Positions 19,515 through 30,162 of a stretch of 64,000 bases of DNA are shown piece by piece. Below the pieces are notes generated by a model. The model was given only the letters and a program-made list of their open reading frames with translations, was not told where the DNA came from and did not search any database. The number at the start of each line of letters is the position of its first letter. Within the stretch, counting starts at the first letter, position 1. The position numbers and the translations under genes were made by a program. Source of the stretch: an uncultured Aquabacterium sp. (GTDB lineage: Bacteria > Pseudomonadota > Gammaproteobacteria > Burkholderiales > Burkholderiaceae_C); contig NZ_CAJYGK010000034.1 in NCBI RefSeq assembly GCF_913773725.1, forward strand, positions 62,001-126,000, in the 5' to 3' direction.

Positions 19515-20249
19515 TCAGCCCGGCTGCTCACGCACCTCGGCCAGGCGCTGGCGCGCGTGGTAAAGCGTTTCGATCGTGATGCGCCGCACCTCGAGCTTGC
19601 TGTGCTCGATGTGGGCGCGCAGCAGGCGCTGCGCCTCGTCGGCGCGGCGGCGGGTGATGGCCCTCAGGATGGTCGCATGTTCGTTGTAGGTGGCCTCGAC
19701 GCGCTGCGGCTTGGTGAAGTCCAGCCGGCGGATGATCCGGATGCGCTCGGTGATGTCGGCATGCACCCGGGTCATCTCGTCGTTGCCGGTGGCGCGCACG
19801 AGGGCTGCGTGAAAGGCCTCGTCCAGCCGATCGACCGTCAGGAAGGCCTGCGCGCGCTCGCCTGGCGGGATCAACCACACCGCCGCCAGCTCATCGAGCA
19901 CGGGCCGCACTTCGGCCTCGCACAGGCGCGCCACCGCATGCGTTTCCAGCAGGATGCGCAGGTCGTAGAGCTGGTCGAATGCATCGAAATCCAGCGGGGC
20001 CACTTGCCAGCCGCTTTTGGGAAACACCAGCAGAAAGCCCTCGCGCTGAAGCCGCTGGAGGGCCTGCCGCAACGGCGTCCGGCTGACCTGCACCTGGTTG
20101 GCCAGATCGCTTTCTGAGAAGCGGTCGCCGGGCAGCAGCACGAAATCGAAGATGAGCTGCTTGATCTGAGCGTACACGCGCTCGGCCAGCGTCGTGGCAG
20201 GCAAGGCGGTGGGCGGCAGAACCGGCGAGGAAGAGGCGACCAGCTTCAT
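19515..20249 (-). CDS. GntR-family (FCD subfamily) regulator of the ureide operon
   Basis: 244 aa. The winged helix-turn-helix (about 18-85: VYAQIKQLIFDFVLLPGDRF, then VSRTPLRQALQRLQREGF) is followed by an all-helical FCD domain with a metal/ligand-binding His set (including DEAFHAAL and NEHATILRAI). It is the last gene of the ten-gene unit; its ATG overlaps the AtzH-like stop as ATGA. FCD regulators often bind TTGTATACAA-like palindromes, and one lies upstream of the first gene of this unit (30151-30162). The ligand is probably a pathway intermediate (inference). Confidence 0.9.
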   Translation of the reverse strand: MKLVASSSPVLPPTALPATTLAERVYAQIKQLIFDFVLLPGDRFSESDLANQVQVSRTPLRQALQRLQREGFLLVFPKSGWQVAPLDFDAFDQLYDLRILLETHAVARLCEAEVRPVLDELAAVWLIPPGERAQAFLTVDRLDEAFHAALVRATGNDEMTRVHADITERIRIIRRLDFTKPQRVEATYNEHATILRAITRRRADEAQRLLRAHIEHSKLEVRRITIETLYHARQRLAEVREQPG

Positions 20250-20671
20250 GAACGAGGTGCGGGCAATGCGTCAGGGGACGTCCAGGGGATCATGCTGACA
20301 TGGGCGGAGACAATGCGCCATCCCTCGGAAAGGCGCACCCAGGTCTGCGACTGAAAACCGCGCAAGGGGGTGTCGCTGCGCACGAATTCGCACAGGGCCA
20401 CTGCCATGTCCGGGCCGAAGGCCGTGATGCGCACATTCTCCAGCCTGCGGGTGAAATCCGGCGCCGGCACACTCGCGCGGTAGGCCACCAGGGCGTCGTG
20501 GCCCCACTGGCGGTCGGCAATGCCATACCGCGTGACGCGCGGATCGTGCCAGAAGAAGGCATTGAGCGCCGCCACGTCGTTGCCCATCAACGCCGCTTCA
20601 TAGGCCAGAAACAGCTGCGTGACTTCCTGCACCACATCGGGTGCGTCGATCTGGCGGGGAGGCAGCGTCAT
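20246..20671 (-). CDS. AtzH/HpxZ family protein (DUF3225, NTF2-like)
   Basis: 141 aa. Proteins of this family include HpxZ of oxalurate catabolism and AtzH, an amidohydrolase reported to convert 1,3-dicarboxyurea to allophanate in the cyanuric acid pathway. Two residues reported as needed in AtzH, Tyr22 and Arg46, appear to correspond to Y24 (FLAYEAAL) and R48 (VTRYGI), with identical spacing of 24. The ATG at 20669-20671 overlaps the atzF stop by 4 bases. No atzE or atzG gene, the usual partners, is in the window. Its role beside AtzF is probably to feed or protect the allophanate step. Confidence 0.82.
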   Translation of the reverse strand: MTLPPRQIDAPDVVQEVTQLFLAYEAALMGNDVAALNAFFWHDPRVTRYGIADRQWGHDALVAYRASVPAPDFTRRLENVRITAFGPDMAVALCEFVRSDTPLRGFQSQTWVRLSEGWRIVSAHVSMIPWTSPDALPAPRS

Positions 20672-22581
20672 GCGCCCTCCCCGTCCTTCGGCAGCGCTGC
20701 ACGGTGCGCCATGTAGGCCCGCCAGCCGCCGAAGTGGCTGATGTCCTCGGCCCCGTTCAGGCCGCAGGGCTCGCAGATGAAGCCCTTGACCCACCGGCCA
20801 TCGGCCAGCTCGACCGAACCCAGACCCAGCGGCGGCGGGATGAGGGCGAGGAAGGAGCCCACCGCCGACAGGGGCACGGCATACACCTCGACGTCGATGG
20901 CGTGTCCGGTGTCCGGGCCGGCGTCATCGGGCACGCGGGCCAGGCCCGGCTTGGGGGGCACCGTGCCTGGCAGCGCATGCAGACGGTAGCGGGGCGCCGT
21001 CCGGGTGGCTTCGATCAGGCGTGCGCGGCGCTCGGTGAGCTGGCCGTGCAGCGGCATGCCACGGAGGTGGGCGCCCACCACGGCCAGGGCCATCACCGGC
21101 TCGCCGGCGGGCAGGGTCGGCAAGGGCCAGGCCCACTCGGCGGGGCCGGGCTGCGTGCGCGTGCAGCCCAGCTGGGTGACCGCCCCCTGGCGTTGCAGGG
21201 TGCGCTGCCACTGCACGCCCAGGTCGAGCAAGGCCGCGTCGCTGCCGCCCGGCGCAATCAGGGTGATGCCGAACGGCATGCCCGCGGGGGTGAAGCCCGC
21301 AGGCAGGGCCAGTGCGGCCAGCCCCAGCAGGTTGACGAAGTTCGTGTAAGTGCCCAGCTGGCTGTTGCGCCCCACGGGGTCGGCGGCCACGCTGTCCAGC
21401 GTCGGGTGGGTGGGTGCGGTCGGCACCATCAGCACGTCGATGGCCTCCCAGGTGGCGCGCGTGTGCACGGCCAGTTCACGCAGGCGGTACAACGCCTGGA
21501 AGGTGGCCACGGCATCGTGGCGGCTCGACTGCTCGATGATGCCGCGCACCACCGGGTTCATCTCGTCGGCGTGGCCCGCCATGAAGGCCGCGATCGCCGC
21601 ATGGCGCTCGGCCACCCACGGGCCCTCGTACAGCATGCGGGCCACATCGAAGAAGGGCTGGAGGTCGACCTCGACCCGGGTCACGGGCCAGGGCTGTCCG
21701 TCGGCCTCCTGCAGGGCTGACCAGTGTGCGCACGCAGCATCGAAGCAGGCGGCGTACTCGACATCGCCGAAGAACTCCGGACGGGCCGGGATGCCGACAC
21801 GCAGGGCGCGCGGCAGCTGGGGAGGCTGGAGCGTGACGCTCTGAAAGACTGGCTCATCGGGTGAGCGCCCTTCCACGACCGCCAGCACGCGCGCCGCATC
21901 CGGCGCCGTGTGCGTGAACACGGACACCACATCCAGCGTACGGCAGGCCGGCAGCACGCCCCGCATGGGCACCCACCCCGGCGTGGGCTTGAGGCCGACG
22001 AGGTTGTTGAAGCCGGCGGGCACGCGGCCCGAGCCCGCCGTGTCGGTTCCCAGAGAAAAGGCGGCCTCGCCCCGCGCCACCACCACGGCCGAGCCCGAGC
22101 TCGATCCGCCTGACACGTGGTCGGCACTGAAGGTGCTGCTCGGGATGCCGTAGGGTGTGCGCGTGCCCACCAGGCCTGTGGCGAACTGGTCCAGGTTGGT
22201 CTTGCCGATGACGATGGCCCCGGCTGCCTGAAGACGCTGCACGATCTCGGCGCTGCGCTCGGGGTGGAAGGCGAAGGCCGGGCAGGCCGCCGTGGTGGGC
22301 AGACCGGCCACGTCGATGTTGTCCTTCACGGCAAACGGCACGCCGTACAGCGGCAGGGTGTCGGGCGAGGCGCCTTCCAGACGCGCCAGCTCGGCCTGAA
22401 GAAAGGCGTCATCGGCCCGGGTGATCCACGCCGGATCGGACGACGCGGGCACGGCGGCCCAGCGGGCCTGGATGGCGGCCACGACACGCGCCGGTGTCAG
22501 GCTGCCATCGCGGTAGGCGGCCAGCAGGCCCGCCACCGTGGGCGGGATCTCGGTGGAGACAAGAGAGGGCTTCGAACTCAT
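20668..22581 (-). CDS. atzF: Allophanate hydrolase
   Basis: 637 aa. The amidase-signature domain (about 1-460) has the Ser-cisSer-Lys triad at K86 (FAVKDNID), S160 (GGSSSGSAV) and S184 (DTAGSGR). A C-terminal domain (about 470-637) is present, as in AtzF, where it helps assembly and the second step of the reaction. The enzyme hydrolyses allophanate to ammonia and CO2 without biotin. The start ATG at 22579-22581 is chosen by alignment of the N-terminus; the ribosome site is weak. It follows the isochorismatase-like gene by 58 bases, the largest gap in the downstream half of the unit. Glutamyl-tRNA or other amidases are less likely because of the C-terminal domain. Confidence 0.9.
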   Translation of the reverse strand: MSSKPSLVSTEIPPTVAGLLAAYRDGSLTPARVVAAIQARWAAVPASSDPAWITRADDAFLQAELARLEGASPDTLPLYGVPFAVKDNIDVAGLPTTAACPAFAFHPERSAEIVQRLQAAGAIVIGKTNLDQFATGLVGTRTPYGIPSSTFSADHVSGGSSSGSAVVVARGEAAFSLGTDTAGSGRVPAGFNNLVGLKPTPGWVPMRGVLPACRTLDVVSVFTHTAPDAARVLAVVEGRSPDEPVFQSVTLQPPQLPRALRVGIPARPEFFGDVEYAACFDAACAHWSALQEADGQPWPVTRVEVDLQPFFDVARMLYEGPWVAERHAAIAAFMAGHADEMNPVVRGIIEQSSRHDAVATFQALYRLRELAVHTRATWEAIDVLMVPTAPTHPTLDSVAADPVGRNSQLGTYTNFVNLLGLAALALPAGFTPAGMPFGITLIAPGGSDAALLDLGVQWQRTLQRQGAVTQLGCTRTQPGPAEWAWPLPTLPAGEPVMALAVVGAHLRGMPLHGQLTERRARLIEATRTAPRYRLHALPGTVPPKPGLARVPDDAGPDTGHAIDVEVYAVPLSAVGSFLALIPPPLGLGSVELADGRWVKGFICEPCGLNGAEDISHFGGWRAYMAHRAALPKDGEGA

Positions 22582-22639
22582 GGATGAAGGCAGATTGCCG
22601 GAAAAGTCGTTCGCGATGAGGGGGACAAGGTGATCTGGC

Positions 22640-23323
22640 TCAGGGTATGAGCCGGTCGGCGCCGAGTGCACCGAGCAGCGCCGCACTGGGCGCCGTCCAA
22701 CCGACGATGGCGCCCTGTGCGCGCACCATCTCGAGCGTGGCGGCCTTGAACTCGGGGAAATAGCTTTCGGTGCCGTCCTCGATCAGCAGGCAATCGAAGC
22801 CGCGGTCATTGGCCTCGCGCATCGTGGTCTGCACGCACACCTCGGTGGTGACGCCCATGATGACGAGCTGCGTGATGCCCCGCTCAGCCAGCACCTCGCC
22901 CAGCGGCGTCGCGTAGAACGCGCCCTTGCCCGGCTTGTCGATGACGACCTCGCCATCGAGGGGGGTCAGCTCCGGGATGATCGCGTGCCCGGGCTCACCG
23001 TGGATCAGGACGCGGCCCATGGGGCCGGTGTCGCCGATGCGCAGGCTGGGCTGACCGCGCAGGCGCTTGGCCGGTGGGCAGTCGGACAGATCGGGCGCGT
23101 GGCCTTCGCGGGTGTGCACGACCAGCCCGCCAGCCGCCCGCCACGCGCGCAGCACCCGCTGGACGGTGGGCACGATGGCCTGCAGGCGGGTCACGTCGTT
23201 GCCCAGGCTGGCGCCGAAGCCGCCCGGCTCGACGAAGTCGCGCTGCATGTCGATGATGACGAGCGCGGCCCGCGGCAGGTCGAGGGCGAACGCAAAGGGC
23301 TGGGCGTCGAGGGGCGAGGTCAT
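22640..23323 (-). CDS. Isochorismatase-like cysteine hydrolase, candidate triuret hydrolase (TrtA-like)
   Basis: 227 aa. The catalytic triad of the family is visible: D25 (VIIDMQRDF), K130 (IDKPGKGAF) and C163 (TTEVCV). It is a close paralogue of the BiuH-like protein encoded at 24928-25680, sharing the segments HTREGH.PDLSD, GEPG..IIPEL and [11 protein letters not shown]. TrtA, triuret hydrolase, is a BiuH relative known to be clustered with biuH, so this second copy is the best candidate for that role. It could instead be a second biuret hydrolase or act on another ureide. Its ATG overlaps the ABC ATPase stop by 4 bases. The family is certain, the substrate is not. Confidence 0.75.
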
Positions 23324-24924
23324 GCGGCCTCCTGTTCGGTGGCGTGTTCGGCGTGGTGGTGGCCGCCCATGAAGCTGCCCAGCACGTGGCGATCGGCTTC
23401 GGCGGCAGAGCAGGCGTGCACCAGTCGTCCTTCGCTCATCACCACGATGCGGTCGGCCAGCTTGAGCAACTCGTCCAGGTCTTCGCTGACCAGCAGCACC
23501 GCCCCGCCGCGGTTGCGCACGGCCATGATGCGGGCGTGGATCTCGTGCACCGCGGCGAAGTCCAGGCCGAACACCGGGTTGGAGACCAGCAGCACGTCGA
23601 CCTGGCCGTCGAGCTCGCGGGCCAGCACCGCGCGCTGGACGTTGCCGCCGGACAGCGATCGGATCGGGGCGTTCTCGCCCTGCGTCTTGACCTTGTAGGC
23701 CTGGATCAACGCCCGCGCCTGCTCACGCAGCACCCCGCCGTGCAGCCAGCCGAATCGGGCTGCGGGCGCCTGATCGAAGCGGCGCAGACCCATGTTGAGG
23801 GCCACGCTCAGGTCGCCCACGCAGGCATTGCGCAGCGGCTCCTCCGGCAGGCTGCGCACGTGCAGGCGCTGGTTCTGTTCACGCCGCGCGTCGTAGCGCT
23901 CGCCGGCCAGCCGCACCGTGCCCGATTCGCGGTCCCGCTGCCCCACCAGCGCCTCCATCAGCTCGCGCTGGCCGTTGCCCGACACGCCGGCGATGCCGAC
24001 GATCTCGCCCGCGCGCACGGTCAGTGACAGCCCGTGCACCGCGCGCTCGCCACGGTCACCGGCCACGCACAGGCCCTCGACCTCCAGGCGCACCGGGCCT
24101 TGGGGCAGCGCTTCGCGTGTCAGCGCCTCGGCCTGGGCCACGGCCCCGGCAGGCGCGCCAGCGGCAGCGGTCAGGCCCATCATCTCGGCGCCCAGCAAGG
24201 CCGGCGTCGTCTGCGCCACGCGGTGGCTGCCCATGAGCTTGCCCCTGCGCAGCACGCTCACGTCGTCGGCCACCTCCATCACCTCGCGGAACTTGTGCGA
24301 GATCATGATGACGCTGACCTCGCCGGCATGGGCGCGGTCGCGCAGCGCGCCCAGCACCTCGTCCGCCTCCTGCGGCGTCAGCACCGACGTGGGTTCGTCC
24401 AGGATGAGCAGGCGCGGTTTGAGGAAGAGCTGCTTGAGGATCTCGAGCTTCTGCTTCTCGCCAGCCGAGAGGTCCATGGGGCGGGCATCCAGGTCAAGTC
24501 GGAACGGCGTGGTGGCCATGAAGGCCTCGAGCTCGGCACGCACGCGCTTCCACGGCACGACTGCCGGCAAGGCGCCCCGGGCCAGCAGCAGGTTCTCGGC
24601 CACCGTCATGCCGGGCACCACGGTGAAGTGCTGGTAGACCATGCCGATGCCCAGTTCCCGCGCCACCACGGGCGAGGTGATGGCGCGCTCGCGGCCGTCG
24701 ATCAGCACGGCACCGTCGTCGGGCTGGTGGTAGCCCACAATGGCCTTGACCAGCGTGCTCTTGCCCGCGCCGTTTTCGCCCAACAGGGCGTGCACGGTGC
24801 CCGGCCGCACCTCGATGTCGACGTGGTCGAGCGCCGTGAATGCGCCGAAACGCTTGGTGAGCTGGTAGGTGGAGAGGGCCAGCGCACCGGAGCGCGGCGG
24901 GATGGGGTCGAGCGGGGCGGTCAT
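23320..24924 (-). CDS. ABC transporter ATPase, nucleoside/BMP type with two ATPase domains
   Basis: 534 aa with two tandem ATPase domains, as in YufO/NupO-type importers. Domain 1 (about 18-250) has Walker [10 protein letters not shown], signature LSAGEKQK and Walker [10 protein letters not shown]. Domain 2 (about 275-515) has the degenerate GVSGNGQRE loop normal for this family and signature LSGGNVQR. It should energise the two permeases encoded at 26778-28840. Unusually, it is placed between two hydrolase genes rather than next to the permeases. It starts 3 bases after the BiuH-like stop and its stop overlaps the TrtA-like start. Confidence 0.93.
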
Positions 24925-24927
24925 GGC

Positions 24928-25680
24928 TCAGGCGACCTTGGCCGGCGTGGGCACCGAAGCGGCCACCAGGGGCAGGCCCTGCAGCGCCCGGATCACCGCC
25001 TTCGAATCGGTGTAGGCGCCGAACACACCGCCTTGCATCCGGATCATCGAGAAGGCCGCGGCGTGGTTGCCCGGGTCGGTCGCGCCGGTGCAGTCGGTCA
25101 GCATCACGCATTCGAAGCCACGATCATTGGCCTCGCGCATCGTCGTGTGCACGCACACGTCGGTCGTGATGCCCGTCAGGATCAGGTTCTCGATGCCGCG
25201 CGTGCGCAGGATCAGCTCGAGGTCGGTCGCGCAGAAGCTGCCCTTGCCCGGCTTGTCGATGATAGGCTCGCCGTCGATCGGATACAGCTCGGGAATGATG
25301 TCCCAGCCCGGCTCGCCCCGGACCAGGATGCGCCCGCACGGGCCCATGTCACCGATGCCCACGCCGTTGGTGCCGATCTGGCGCGAGCGCCAGCGCTTGT
25401 TGGCCGGCAGGTCACTCAGATCGGGCCTGTGGCCTTCGCGGGTGTGGATCACGTGCATGCCCACGCGGCGGGCTTCGGCCAGCAGCGCCTTGATCGGCTC
25501 GATCGGAGCGCGCGTGGCACTGATGTCGTAGCCCATCTTGTCGACGTAGCCGCCCACGCCGCAGAAGTCAGTCTGCATGTCGATGATGACGAGCGCGGTG
25601 TTTGCCGGGCGCAGGTCGCCGTTGTAGGGCCAGGCATAAGGCTGGGCTTCGACGTACAGGGGGGTGAGGGGCGTGCTCAT
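24928..25680 (-). CDS. biuH: Biuret amidohydrolase, BiuH-like
   Basis: 250 aa isochorismatase-like cysteine hydrolase. The triad is D34 (VIIDMQTDF), K143 (IDKPGKGSF) and C176 (TTDVCV). The N-terminus [12 protein letters not shown], and segments QTDFCG.GGYVD.MGYD and PANKRWRS, match what I recall of rhizobial biuret hydrolase closely. BiuH converts biuret to allophanate and ammonia, and allophanate hydrolase is encoded in the same unit, which supports the assignment. Its ATG overlaps the amidase stop as ATGA. Other isochorismatase-like amidases (RutB, carbamoylsarcosine amidase) are less similar. Confidence 0.87.
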
Positions 25681-26735
25681 GCGGCATCCTTCAGGTCAGA
25701 CTGGGCCACGGCCGGCGTGGACGAGGTCAGCAGGTTCGGTTCGGCCCCGCGGTGGGTGCGCTCAGGGGGGGCGAAGCCACAGGACGTGCCGTCGGTGTGG
25801 ACCACCTCGTCCTCCCACGGCAGGCGCGCCCGCCCGGCCACCATGTCCTGCATGAAGGTGTAGGGGCAGTCCTGCGCGCCGCCGCGCACGGCCACATAGC
25901 CGCGGTGGAAGAACTGGTAGGGGTTGTTCTCGACGCCCCAGTGCCGCCGCGCCTCGCGCACCAGATCGGCCCGCACCTCGGCACACACGATTTCATCGGG
26001 GCGACCGCCCCCCTGGGCCATCACCGTGCCGTCGAAGTTGCACACCATGGCCTCGCCCATCGAATCGAAGGTGCCATCGCTGCCGCACAGGCACACGCTG
26101 GCCGTGACCATCAGGTTCTGGAAGGCATTGGCCTGGTTGGTGATCTGCCAGGCATGGCGAATGGGCGCGGTGTAGCCTGCGGTACGGATCATCACTTCCG
26201 CGCCCTGGTAGGCACATTCGCGCGCCATCTCGGGAAACATGCCGTCGTGGCAGATGATGAGCGCCAGCTTCACGCCCCTCGGGCCGGTGATCACCGGGAT
26301 GCCCATGTTGCCCGGCTCCCAGGGCTCGACCGGTACCCACGGGTGGTACTTGCGATAGTAGAGCTTCAGCTCGCCCTGGTCGTCGATGACGAGCCCCGTG
26401 TTGTACGGGTTGCCGCCGGGGTTCTTCTCCATGATCGAGAAGCAGCCCCAGATGCGGTGCTGCAGGCAGGCCGCCTTGAACGCGGCGACCTCGGGCCCGT
26501 CGAGCGTCACCATCAGATCCTCGGCGGTGTTCATGGACAGGCCGTGCAAGGCGTACTCCGGGAACACAACGAGGTCCATGCCGGCATAGCTGCGGCGCGC
26601 CTTGCCCACCATCTCGACGATGCGATCGGTCTGCGCGGCCAGCTGCGCAGGCGTGTCGACCACCGGCAACTGCAGCTGAACCAGCCCGATCACCATGCCG
26701 TTGGGCGACTTGTTCAGGCCACTGAGTCCACTCAT
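25677..26735 (-). CDS. Formamidase-type carbon-nitrogen hydrolase
   Basis: 352 aa nitrilase-superfamily amidase with the Glu-Lys-Cys triad at E60 ([10 protein letters not shown]), K129 (YYRKYHPW) and C162 ([10 protein letters not shown]). The length and the ICHDGM segment fit the AmiE/AmiF branch, nearer to formamidase AmiF than to aliphatic amidase AmiE (which has CDDG). It should release ammonia from formamide or a related short amide. The tail (about 320-352) is variable. The start ATG at 26733-26735 has AAAGGA upstream. It lies 42 bases after the second permease gene and overlaps biuH. The exact substrate in this pathway is open. Confidence 0.82.
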
Positions 26736-26777
26736 GGGTTCGTCCTTTCTCTGTGTGCAGCGGTCATGCGCGGGCGT

Positions 26778-27701
26778 TCAGCGCGACACCCCCAGTTCGG
26801 CCGGGGCGCCCTGCACGGCCCGCTTCGGGCTGCAGGTCCACACCAGAATGGCCAGGGTCAGCGCGTAAGGCACCGCGTTGAAAAGGTGATAGCCCCAGCT
26901 GACGCCGACCGACTGCAAGGCCGGGCCGAGCGCGCCTGCCCCGCCGAACAGCAATGCGGCTCCCAGGCAAGCCACGGGGCGCCACCGGGCAAAGATCACC
27001 AGGGCCACGGCGATCAGACCCTGGCCGCTCGACAGCCCCTCGTTCCAGCTGCCCGGGTAGTACAGCGACAGCGACGCGCCACCCAGGCCGGCCACGAAGC
27101 CGCCCGCCATCGTGGCCAGCACGCGCACGGTGTTCACCGAGTAGCCCAGGGCCCGCGCCGCGTCGCTGCTGTCGCCGGCCATGCGCACGATCAGGCCCCA
27201 GCGCGTGTTGGCCAGCGCCCAGGCCATCAGCACGGCCAGCACCACCCCGATGGGGAACAGCGCATTGATGCGCAAGGCCGCCTGGACCGCCGGCGCGTCG
27301 ATCCAGTCGCCGAGCGACAGCGCCGGGATCTGCGCGGCCTGCGGCTGGATCAGCGGCTTGCCCAGGTAGAACGCCAGCCCTGCGCCCAGCAGCATCAGCG
27401 CGATGCCCGTGGCGATGTCGTTGACGCGCGGCAGCGAGCACAACAGCCCGTGCAGCATGGCCAGCAGCGCCCCCACCACCCCGGCCAGCAGCACACCGGC
27501 CCAGGCCGAGCCCGTGAGGTAGCTGCCCCCGAAGGCGGCCATGGCCGACAGCACCAGCACGCCTTCGAGGCCGAGGTTGATGCGCCCGGACTTCTCGGTC
27601 AGGCACTCCCCCAGGCTGACGAACAGAAAGGGCGTGCCGACGCGGATGGCCCCGCCCAGCACGGCCAGGGCCACATCGCCCCACATTGCAGCGTCGCTCA
27701 T
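26778..27701 (-). CDS. ABC transporter permease, nucleoside/BMP type (NupQ-like)
   Basis: 307 aa integral membrane protein with about eight to ten helices. The segment PFLFVSLGECLTEKSGRINLGLEGVL near the N-terminus is the typical signature of the YufQ/NupQ permeases of BMP-dependent importers. It pairs with the permease encoded just upstream, whose stop overlaps this ATG by 4 bases. It would form the inner-membrane channel for the substrate bound by the periplasmic protein encoded at 28929-30047. Confidence 0.92.
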   Translation of the reverse strand: MSDAAMWGDVALAVLGGAIRVGTPFLFVSLGECLTEKSGRINLGLEGVLVLSAMAAFGGSYLTGSAWAGVLLAGVVGALLAMLHGLLCSLPRVNDIATGIALMLLGAGLAFYLGKPLIQPQAAQIPALSLGDWIDAPAVQAALRINALFPIGVVLAVLMAWALANTRWGLIVRMAGDSSDAARALGYSVNTVRVLATMAGGFVAGLGGASLSLYYPGSWNEGLSSGQGLIAVALVIFARWRPVACLGAALLFGGAGALGPALQSVGVSWGYHLFNAVPYALTLAILVWTCSPKRAVQGAPAELGVSR

Positions 27702-28840
27702 GCGGCCTCCTTGCGCGCGGCCCGCAGGGCCGCCTGTTCCCGGGCGAGCCGTGCCCGGCTGGTTTCATGGGGCGTCTGTCGGTCCCGCACCGCGTCCCGC
27801 TCGCTCACCCATTGAGCCAGCCTTCCGCGCAGCGCCTCGCAGGCCAGGATCAGCACGAAGGCAAAGCCCTGCAGCACCAGCACCGAGGCATCGGGCAGAT
27901 CGAGCCGGCGCTGCAGCAGGCTGCCCGCCGCCCCGAAGCCGCCGAACAGGATGGCCACCGGGATGACGGCAAACGGGTTGTGCCGGGCCACGAAGGACAC
28001 CAGGATGCCGGTGTAGCCCAGCCCGACAATCAGGGAGGCATTGGCCGAGGTGTGCACGGCGGCCACCTCGATGCCGCCCGCCAGGCCGGCACAGGCACCG
28101 CCCAGCGCACAGGCGGTGATGACGATGGTGTGGCTCGGCAGCCCTACCAGGCGGGCCGCCCGTGCATTGCCGCCCACCACCCGGGTGGCAAAGCCGTGCG
28201 TGCTGCCAAACAGCCACAGGCCCGCGACCACGCAGGCCACCGCCCCCCACACCAGACCCCAATGCACATCCTGCCCGGGCAACGGGCCCAACAGCAGGAC
28301 CGGATCCAGCGGCAGCGTGGACGGCTTGTTGAGGCTGGCCGGATCCCGCATCGGCCCTTCCACGACATGCTTGAAGACGCCGATGGCAAGGTAGGCCATC
28401 AGCAGAGAGGCAATGGTTTCATTCACACCGCGAAACTGGCGCAGAATCCCCACCAGCGCGATCCACGCCGCGCCCGCCACGGCGCTGGCGAGCAACACCA
28501 GCACCGTGCCCGTCACGCCCGCAGGTGGCGCAAACCAGTAAGGCAGCCCCGCGCAAGCCAGACCACCGAGCACGAGCGCGCCCTCCCCGCCGATCACCAT
28601 CAGCCCGGCGCGCTGCGGAATGGCCACGCACAGTGCCGTCAGCATCAACGGCGCGGCGCGCTGCAAGGTGTTCTGCCACGAGAACGCGTCACCGAAGGCG
28701 CCCTTGAACAGCAGCACCCAGGTCTCGGTGGGGCTGGTGCCACCCAGCCAGACGAAGCCGCCGAACAGCAGCACGGCGCCAGCCAGCGCCAGCAGCGGCA
28801 GCACCACACTGTCGAAGAGGTTGAGCAAGCGGTCTCGCAT
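27698..28840 (-). CDS. ABC transporter permease, nucleoside/BMP type (NupP-like)
   Basis: 380 aa integral membrane protein of the YufP/NupP family, with helices spread over the whole length and an Arg-rich cytoplasmic tail (about 340-380). The conserved segment NAARAARLVGLPSHTIVITACALGG-like region near residue 230 is present in short form (RAARLVGLPSH). The start ATG at 28838-28840 (MRDRLLNL) is chosen; an upstream frame to 28897 has no helix and no family sequence. It follows the binding-protein gene by 88 bases and overlaps the second permease gene. Confidence 0.91.
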   Translation of the reverse strand: MRDRLLNLFDSVVLPLLALAGAVLLFGGFVWLGGTSPTETWVLLFKGAFGDAFSWQNTLQRAAPLMLTALCVAIPQRAGLMVIGGEGALVLGGLACAGLPYWFAPPAGVTGTVLVLLASAVAGAAWIALVGILRQFRGVNETIASLLMAYLAIGVFKHVVEGPMRDPASLNKPSTLPLDPVLLLGPLPGQDVHWGLVWGAVACVVAGLWLFGSTHGFATRVVGGNARAARLVGLPSHTIVITACALGGACAGLAGGIEVAAVHTSANASLIVGLGYTGILVSFVARHNPFAVIPVAILFGGFGAAGSLLQRRLDLPDASVLVLQGFAFVLILACEALRGRLAQWVSERDAVRDRQTPHETSRARLAREQAALRAARKEAA

Positions 28841-28928
28841 CGTCGTGGCCCTTGATCCCGGTAACGGAGTGGCTGGTTGTCTGCCGATCAGGCTCAATCG
28901 GCGAGCCTGACCGGACAGAGCGGGTCGA

Positions 28929-30047
28929 TCAGATCTTGCCGATCACCCCCTCGACGAGGTAGTTCATGCCTTCCAGCGCCACGTCGGTCTGCTTCATCAC
29001 CGAGCCCTTGGGCACGACCACCTTGCCGGTGTTGTCCTTGATCTCGCCGGTGAAGATCTCGAACTCGTCCTTCAGCATCGCGGCCTTGATGGCGTCGGCC
29101 TGCTTGCGCGCGCCTTCCGGCACCATCGCGCCATAGGGTGAGGTCTTCACGAAGCCTTCCTTCAGGCCTCCCCGCAGGAAGTTCGGATGGGGCTTGCCGG
29201 TGCGCGCGGCTTCGACGATCTGCTTGTAAGGCGTGATCCAGTTCCACTCGGCGCCGGTCAGATAGGCATTGGGCGCCAGCTTGGCCTGGCTGGCGTGGTA
29301 GCCGCACACGAACTTGCCGCGCTTGGCAGCGGTCTCGACGATGACCTTGGGGCCGTCGACGTGCATGGTGAACACATCCACCCCCTGATCGGCCAGGCTG
29401 TTGGTGGCTTCGGCCTCCTTGACGGGCATGGACCAGTCACCCGTGAAGATGACCGAGCAGGTGATGGCCGGGTTGACCGAACGCGCGCCCAGCGTGAAGG
29501 CGTTGATGTTGCGCAGCACCTGCGGGATGGGCTTGGCCGCGATGAAGCCGATCTTCTTCGACTTTGTCATGTGGCCGGCGATCACGCCGTTCAGGTACTG
29601 GCATTCGTCGATGTAGCCAAAGAAGCTGCCCACGGTCTTGGGGTGCTTGGCCGCATCCCACAGGCCCCCGCAATGCGCGAAGCGCACGTCGGGGTTCTTC
29701 TTGGCCACCTCGAGGATGTGCGGGTTGAAGTAGCCGAAGGAGGTCGGGAACAGCAGCGTGGCACCGTCCTGCGAGATCATGCCCTGCATGGTCTTCTGCA
29801 CCGACTGGGTCTCGGGCACGTTCTCTTCACCGACCATCTTGATGCCAGGCATGGCCTTGATCGCCATGGCCGCTTCGTAGTGCGACTGGTTGTAGCCGAA
29901 GTCGTCCTTGGGGCCGACGTAGATCATGCCGATCACCAGCGGCTTCTGCGCCAGCGCGAGCCCGGACAGCCCGCCCAGGGCGAGACCCGCCCCCGAGGCA
30001 CCCACGCCTTTGATCCACGAACGCCGGCTCCATTGATCCAGTGACAT
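28929..30047 (-). CDS. BMP-family substrate-binding protein of the ABC importer
   Basis: 372 aa periplasmic binding protein. The N-terminus has a twin-arginine motif SRRSWIKG followed by a hydrophobic stretch and ALA-Q near residue 32, so Tat export is likely. The body is the BMP fold (VIGMIYVGPKDDFGYNQSHYEA), the group that binds nucleosides or other small nitrogenous compounds. The start at 30047 has AAGGAG eight bases before it. It is the first gene of the ten-gene unit, directly downstream of the operator and sigma-54-like promoter. The ligand is presumably the ureide or amide handled by the enzymes in the same unit. Confidence 0.91.
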   Translation of the reverse strand: MSLDQWSRRSWIKGVGASGAGLALGGLSGLALAQKPLVIGMIYVGPKDDFGYNQSHYEAAMAIKAMPGIKMVGEENVPETQSVQKTMQGMISQDGATLLFPTSFGYFNPHILEVAKKNPDVRFAHCGGLWDAAKHPKTVGSFFGYIDECQYLNGVIAGHMTKSKKIGFIAAKPIPQVLRNINAFTLGARSVNPAITCSVIFTGDWSMPVKEAEATNSLADQGVDVFTMHVDGPKVIVETAAKRGKFVCGYHASQAKLAPNAYLTGAEWNWITPYKQIVEAARTGKPHPNFLRGGLKEGFVKTSPYGAMVPEGARKQADAIKAAMLKDEFEIFTGEIKDNTGKVVVPKGSVMKQTDVALEGMNYLVEGVIGKI

Positions 30048-30150: not shown

Positions 30151-30162
30151 CTTGTATACAAG
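30151..30162. promoter_or_regulatory. GntR (FCD) operator-like palindrome
   Basis: CTTGTATACAAG is a perfect 12-base palindrome. FCD-type GntR regulators commonly bind NTTGTATACAAN-like sites, and such a regulator is encoded at the end of the operon that starts 104 bases away. It lies at the expected start of transcription for the overlapping sigma-54-like promoter, so bound protein would block initiation. Confidence 0.7.

Follow-up and report, generated by a model that had tools for sequence, protein, structure and literature searches.

The window, a 64,000-nucleotide stretch of contig NZ_CAJYGK010000034.1 from an uncultured Aquabacterium sp., carries on its minus strand, running from position 30047 down to 19515, a ten-gene operon that very likely serves to scavenge nitrogen from urea oligomers, with a predicted core of triuret and biuret catabolism. 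Analysis of open reading frames with Pfam and NCBIfam profiles places the genes in the transcription order bmpA, nupB, nupC, amiF, biuH, nupA, trtA, atzF, atzH-like and gntR, joined by five four-base ATGA overlaps and by gaps of 88, 42, 3 and 58 bases; the start codons of nupB, atzF and bmpA were chosen among several candidates. The nupA ATPase gene sits between the hydrolase genes biuH and trtA. The original prediction had described ten same-strand genes, many overlapping as ATGA, for a BMP importer, a formamidase, two isochorismatases, AtzF, an AtzH-like protein and a GntR regulator, with transporter and enzyme genes interleaved; each of these points is borne out, the families by both profile collections and the interleaving also by its conservation in relatives. 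Families, site residues, gene order and conservation are direct results, from which the substrates are predicted throughout.

The triuret and biuret pathway and its link with a BMP importer are already published, TrtA in 2020 (PMC7948467) and trtA-biuH-atzF beside bmpA-nupABC in 2025 (PMC12625717), so that the combination is not new; these and the other papers are cited for the parts that were available. The operon is real, well preserved and of this published kind; its distinguishing features are the formamidase cassette, the particular pocket of its importer and an altered AtzH.

Hydrolases, proposed route and conservation

The biuH (24928–25680) and trtA (22640–23323) genes encode isochorismatase-family proteins that are 48% identical to each other. 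The biuH product scores 414 bits against the BiuH equivalog profile NF050097 and passes its cut-off of 370, whereas the trtA product reaches only 256.4 bits and does not; among solved structures, it matches TrtA best by sequence (6xix, 306 bits). In a comparison of 64 rows, 37 BiuH and 27 TrtA, assigned by BLAST score alone, 13 sites taken from PMC7948467 were then examined, of which seven are described as common to both enzymes and six as discriminating (F35, N41, A134, E160, Y187 and I205 in TrtA; Y, Y, S, D, T and V in BiuH). All 27 TrtA rows, the window's included, hold the TrtA residue at 13 of 13 sites. The window BiuH holds the BiuH-type residue at all six discriminating sites together with the catalytic D, K and C, and Asp occupies the TrtA Glu160 position in 37 of 37 BiuH rows; the site exceptions among BiuH rows are both rows of locus L067 and L057, which has Ile at the TrtA Ile205 position. 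By its residues, the 22640–23323 product is thus a TrtA-type triuret hydrolase, with triuret activity predicted. Locus L067 (G254:C29) itself contains two BiuH-like frames, one with Ala for the catalytic cysteine and with other site changes; the frames overlap as listed, and one may therefore be a misread frame. Downstream of trtA, atzF (20668–22581) encodes an Amidase domain followed by a C-terminal AH_C domain and scores 755.8 bits against the allophanate hydrolase profile TIGR02713, well over the cut-off of 511.05.

Together, these proteins suggest a stepwise route. BmpA and NupABC would import a small planar ureide, TrtA would convert triuret to carboxybiuret with release of one ammonia, and the AtzH-like protein would turn carboxybiuret into biuret and CO2, a step otherwise slow and spontaneous, carboxybiuret by itself having a half-life of about 20 min (PMC7948467). 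BiuH would then hydrolyse biuret to allophanate, which AtzF would split into ammonia and CO2. The claimed sequence from triuret through biuret and allophanate to ammonia is supported by the families and by the TrtA residues at 13 of 13 sites; the accompanying idea of formamide as a side input fares less well, as discussed below. A urease is present in the window's genome, so that any urea escaping from allophanate would not have to be lost.

The same hydrolases in the same step order make up the triuret pathway of Herbaspirillum sp. BH-1 (TrtA, TrtB, BiuH, AtzF; PMC7948467), and four Herbaspirillum loci (L160, L162, L172, L189) show bmpA-nupB-nupC-biuH-nupA-trtA-atzH-gntR as in the window, which in addition has a formamidase and keeps atzF within the gene run. 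Nitrifier contigs arranged biuH-trtA-atzF-trtB-bmpA-nupABC (PMC12625717) likewise combine these enzymes with an adjacent BMP importer, and the figure legend names gntR; the available main text of that paper does not mention a formamidase, and the passages available call the importer a nucleoside transporter and do not discuss its pocket. With the atzDGEHF cyanuric acid operon of Pseudomonas ADP (PMC6219798) the window shares AtzF and AtzH homologues, but its operon lacks AtzD and AtzEG and has Val at the AtzH Arg66 place. A search of the window's genome for AtzD gave no match, and the control genomes were equally silent.

Conservation was assessed in two main sets. Among 399 genomes of the window's order, its own counted, BiuH exceeds the cut-off in 35. 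The stretches around the other 34 BiuH genes, plus the one sub-cut-off place (L067), form 35 order loci (L033–L067), and bmpA-nupB-nupC-biuH-nupA occurs in this order in 28 of them, with amiF after nupC or not, followed by trtA in 23; both figures are our own count from the locus listing. Out of 559 confirmed relatives, the second set takes the best 80, hence the loci closest to the window by BiuH. Here TrtA is present in 64 loci, AtzH in 42, an AtzE-like gene in 22, AtzF in 49, a formamidase in 36 and the binding protein in 77. All ten genes stand in the same relative order in three of the 80 loci, L145 (Hydrogenophaga sp.), L151 (Burkholderiales) and L177 (Methylibium sp.), and nine, the formamidase being absent, in seven more, so that the same ten-gene set does exist in other genomes. 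These order counts tolerate other genes in between, and several ten- and nine-gene loci do hold extra genes between biuH and nupA. Among the seven is L143 (Aquabacterium sp.), the nearest relative by BiuH at 91% identity, and a plasmid of Ideonella dechloratans CCUG 30977 has these nine genes side by side. Since the same gene order recurs in other genomes, the arrangement is not a matter of chance.

Several of these loci, L145, L151, L155 and L217 among them, carry another ABC (ATP-binding cassette) ATPase that is about 25–33% identical over part of nupA and sometimes lies between biuH and nupA; some species may thus add a second importer. TrtA-like matches extend to 284 plasmid records, in 124 of which the identity falls below 60%; 78 of the records are from Escherichia and 15 from Klebsiella.

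Importer pocket and ligand

The importer consists of the BMP-family periplasmic binding protein BmpA (28929–30047; PF02608, 140.2 bits against a gathering threshold of 24.1), two BPD_transp_2 permeases, NupB (27698–28840) and NupC (26778–27701), whose genes overlap as ATGA, and the ATPase NupA (23320–24924), with two ABC_tran stretches. By sequence, the nearest solved chain to BmpA is the atrazine periplasmic binding protein AtzT (6pi5, E 1.6e-64), which was crystallised with guanine and whose guanine contacts include E165, N218 and N220 (PMC6834077). In AtzT numbering the window's pocket reads Y45, S97, F98, Q165, N169, W194, H218 and D220. Y45, S97, F98, N169 and W194 are common to both proteins, whereas the E165, N218 and N220 of AtzT are replaced by Q, H and D, so that the window BmpA lacks the guanine-type pocket.

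Alignment reveals the combination Q165/N169/H218/D220 in 30 of 30 operon-linked binding proteins and in none of 30 control BMP proteins. The controls are the best-scoring places of 30 genomes, drawn from the 45 that gave a match when 150 genomes of the order were searched. Position 165 is E in 23 controls and L in seven, which belong to a more distant BMP type, and Q in none; H218 occurs in six controls and D220 in 21, so only the combination is diagnostic. Extra BMP copies near biuret operons (L046 and L054; 36% identical, E165) were excluded from both counts, and two alike pairs remain among the binding proteins counted. In the 80-locus set the combination is found in 77 of 77 operon-linked binding proteins. 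Second BMP copies downstream in Bradyrhizobium carry E165/G169 in eight of eight cases and the combination in none, while a further copy in L205, 50% identical, has L165.

This pocket suggests that the importer carries a small planar ureide, likely triuret and biuret. That purine or pyrimidine bases or nucleosides are taken up instead, the hydrolases acting on breakdown products made in the cell, is distinctly unlikely: BMP importers are usually so annotated, PMC12625717 names the linked importer accordingly, AtzT binds guanine in its crystal, and the aromatic clamp Y45/W194 with S97 is retained, yet every one of the 30 operon-linked proteins has Q, H and D for the guanine-contacting E165, N218 and N220, with E165 kept in 23 of 30 controls. 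Moreover, the relatives L134–L136, without a BiuH gene in the stretch seen, deviate from the signature, for which only the full combination counts. Two observations weigh against a simple reading of ureide transport from the pocket. Q165 is not confined to the operon-linked proteins: seven proteins encoded next to a different isochorismatase have it, together with S169 and Q218, as does the protein of L135, where no BiuH gene was seen. In addition, a Rhizobium cluster bearing AtzD (L253) has the window's importer pocket, so that the ligand range may exceed urea oligomers and may include cyanuric acid. The suggestion that the ligand could be new for the BMP family is strengthened by the pocket comparison.

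The Rhizobium brockwellii plasmid cluster (L253:1454–10018) resembles the window in its bmpA-nupB-nupC-formamidase-biuH run, followed by ATPase and trtA genes, and differs in three respects: AtzD separates biuH from the ATPase gene, a cupin replaces AtzH after trtA, and atzF is absent from the stretch shown; a cyanuric acid hydrolase thus lies inside one operon with formamidase, BiuH, TrtA and cupin. Its AtzD matches 132 plasmid records at E 1e-40, of which 67 are from Rhizobium. A sister cluster in L127–L133 runs nupA-nupB-nupC-bmpA and then another isochorismatase, 34–37% identical to BiuH, with Q165, S169, Q218 and D220 in the binding protein, perhaps an importer and hydrolase for another ureide.

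The AtzH-like protein and its predicted substrate

The AtzH-like (DUF3225/HpxZ) protein encoded at 20246–20671 (PF11533) scores 146.4 bits against the HpxZ profile NF033625, over its cut-off of 135. In Pseudomonas ADP, AtzH acts after AtzEG, and its docked pocket comprises Tyr22, Arg46, Arg63, Arg66, Arg73, Phe94, Arg96, Gln106 and Gln108 (PMC6219798). With the numbering set so that the published pocket residues fall in place, and with Phe94 left out, the window protein retains Tyr22, Arg46, Arg63, Arg73, Arg96, Gln106 and Gln108 and has Val at the Arg66 position. AtzE is absent from the ten genes, and no protein in the window's genome exceeds the AtzE cut-off of 425.75 bits, two amidases scoring 333 and 277; AtzG was not searched for.

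Across genomes, Arg66 follows AtzE, whose absence is here absence from the stretch examined rather than from the whole genome. In the rows of the 80-locus set, Arg66 is found in 20 of 20 proteins whose locus includes an AtzE-like gene and in 0 of 23 whose locus does not, the window's among the latter; a second set gives 13 of 13 and 0 of 7, for a pooled 33 of 33 versus 0 of 30. Only alignment columns 66 and 71 separate the two groups at the thresholds used. Tyr22 and Arg46 are present in every AtzH-like row; all rows with AtzE have Arg96 as well, which 13 of the 30 AtzE-free rows lack. On the trees, the AtzE label needs at least two changes, and the well supported branches of the larger tree force only one; two Variovorax proteins (L200, L203) are nested in the AtzE group, have no AtzE in the stretch and carry Leu66. 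One arginine fewer fits a substrate with one carboxylate fewer, namely carboxybiuret, the product of TrtA. On balance, the AtzH-like proteins of AtzE-free loci would therefore appear to decarboxylate carboxybiuret.

An unlikely alternative is that the protein is a leftover or still acts as a 1,3-dicarboxyurea decarboxylase, its substrate coming from an AtzE-like amidase encoded at another place in the genome. The seven retained pocket residues and the two genome amidases with AtzE scores below the cut-off are in keeping with it, but the division at Arg66 of 33 of 33 from 30 of 30 by AtzE in the locus, which only columns 66 and 71 reproduce, argues otherwise, and Tyr22 and Arg46, kept in 30 of 30, are unexpected for a leftover. 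Two facts speak against the proposed AtzH step. First, the impaired variants of Pseudomonas ADP AtzH listed in the available part of PMC6219798 do not include Arg66Ala or Arg66Lys, from which Arg66 would not be essential there; this also favours the dicarboxyurea alternative. Second, 17 of 94 TrtA loci show no AtzH, AtzE or cupin, so the decarboxylase is either dispensable or unseen in them.

The latter count comes from 127 pooled BiuH loci: the 80-locus set, the order loci, ten phylum loci chosen for their formamidase, two plasmids and the window. Near-identical strains were kept, and BiuH DNA is identical between L041 and L158, across sets, and between L177 and L179, both in the 80-locus set. 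TrtA is present in 94 of these loci, accompanied by AtzE and AtzH in 30, AtzE alone in 2, AtzH alone in 30, a cupin in 15 and none of them in 17. In several of the 17 the contig ends within the locus or trtA lies apart from nupA, and no gene conserved after trtA was recognised in the 17 by eye. The cupin starts within 123 bases of trtA in 14 of its 15 loci; 13 are alphaproteobacterial, and in the gammaproteobacterial L197 the distance is 3.4 kb. No locus has both the cupin and AtzH (P 6e-9, assuming independent loci, which related genomes are not). In the four Herbaspirillum loci the atzH-like gene follows trtA with no room for another gene. The AtzH-like protein or the cupin may be the published TrtB, whose family is not stated in the available parts of the literature. 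To identify TrtB as a neighbour of AtzD, AtzD was sought in six genomes, from Herbaspirillum and two Burkholderiaceae; none gave a match, and the controls were silent too. The idea that the AtzE-free L050 and L053 come from ammonia oxidisers was likewise dropped, as nine genomes gave no AMO match and the controls were again silent.

Formamidase, regulator and surroundings

AmiF (25677–26735; CN_hydrolase) scores 551.6 bits against the formamidase profile NF009803, passing its cut-off of 406, and 232.2 against the aliphatic amidase profile, below the cut-off of 427. Its nearest solved chain by sequence is the formamidase 5g3o, and it contains the motifs FPEY, YRK and CHDG. A search of 398 genomes of the order gave relatives of at least 60% identity in 18. 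In 16 of these the gene belongs to the operon, in one it is truncated by a contig end beside nupC-nupB-bmpA, with biuH not seen, and in one it lies outside the operon (G286; 63% identical, with an internal stop); all remaining listed matches are at most 38% identical. Among 398 genomes of the phylum, 15 have a formamidase at E ≤1e-100, 11 of them outside the order set, and ten of these 11 have BiuH in the same gene run, L248 being without it; the matches in G432 and G585 have an internal stop. Over both sets, a close AmiF relative is located in the operon in 27 of the 29 genomes that have one, which suggests a tighter link with the pathway; formamide is thus probably not a mere side input, as originally supposed. 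Public annotation of two plasmids likewise shows a formamidase gene within the operon.

The gene mostly occupies a single slot, between nupC and biuH, which some species fill and others leave empty. Of the 36 formamidase-bearing loci in the 80-locus set, 27 have it between nupC and biuH and seven at another place in the operon, for the most part upstream of bmpA; in two the contig begins at the gene. The genes nupC and biuH are direct neighbours in 50 of the 80, 43 of them without any formamidase. On the BiuH tree, formamidase presence needs 22 changes, of which well supported branches make nine unavoidable. With shuffled labels the figure is 27, and 15 of 500 shuffles come out as low as 22; the gene comes and goes. 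Formamidase is equally common without TrtA (8 of 16) and with it (28 of 64), and this points to BiuH as its partner.

At a tentative guess, the formamidase catalyses the last step of N-formylurea breakdown and removes formamide generated by the pathway itself: BiuH or TrtA would take the terminal ammonia from N-formylurea to leave N-formylcarbamate, which would yield formamide and CO2, a chemistry that we infer. Several points weigh against it. N-formylurea is a poor TrtA substrate, at 0.3% of the activity on triuret (Table 2, PMC7948467), data for BiuH on formylurea were not found in the literature available, and the nearest relative by BiuH, L143, has no formamidase. Quite possibly, the formamidase is instead an independent nitrogen-scavenging gene under the same nitrogen control, chemically unconnected with biuret, as its coming and going on the BiuH tree, its presence in 36 of 80 loci and its position upstream of bmpA, not beside biuH, in some Bradyrhizobium would allow; such a gene is, however, expected elsewhere too, yet lies elsewhere in just 2 of 29 genomes, and 27 of the 36 loci have it between nupC and biuH. 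A literature search pairing formamidase with biuret hydrolase or triuret, and formylurea with biuret, found no paper tying a formamidase to the operon, most subscription papers being outside its reach.

The last gene, gntR (19515–20249; PF00392 and PF07729), encodes a GntR/FCD-family regulator that would control the operon from a palindrome upstream of bmpA. The candidate operator, CTTGTATACAAG, lies at 30151–30162, is the only exact copy in the window and stands 103 bases from the bmpA start codon. In the 80-locus set, a match of at least 9 of 12 positions within 300 bases upstream of the bmpA match occurs in 19 of the 38 loci that have a GntR relative (at least 50% identity) and in 13 of the 38 in which none was seen; in loci with such a match, at most 4.3% of the other 300-base stretches of the locus score as high. 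The modest excess over loci without GntR speaks against this assignment, while missing palindromes are expected, as bmpA is not the first gene in many loci. A sigma-54 promoter upstream of bmpA, as in atz operons, was considered and dropped, the best match being 6 of 12 in the window and at most 8 of 12 in the 80-locus set. Seven of ten flanking reading frames scanned have a family match, with a FIST protein and a pectinacetylesterase-like protein as immediate neighbours and acyl-CoA, AMP-binding, hydrolase and TetR proteins farther out; none of the ten has a visible link to the operon.

Triuret and biuret both reach soils as impurities of urea fertiliser (PMC7948467 and PMC7700744, respectively). 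A wider reading, speculative and rather improbable, is that the operon scavenges fragments of oxidised nucleobases: the importer would take triuret, biuret and N-formylurea, BiuH would make formamide from formylurea, the AtzH-like protein would be a carboxybiuret decarboxylase where AtzE is absent, and an unrelated cupin would do the same job mainly in Alphaproteobacteria. If true, this would explain why a formamidase stands so often beside BiuH and would make the missing carboxylate-binding arginine a mark of carboxybiuret. The literature available showed neither a test of which ligand the linked importer binds nor a role assigned to the linked formamidase, nor a rule by which AtzH substrates could be told apart; the corresponding three predictions, on importer ligand, formamidase role and AtzH substrate, can be checked with a few purified proteins. 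Collectively, the pocket and Arg66 rules would help annotators to separate these proteins, currently named nucleoside transporter (PMC12625717) and HpxZ, from nucleoside importers and oxalurate proteins.

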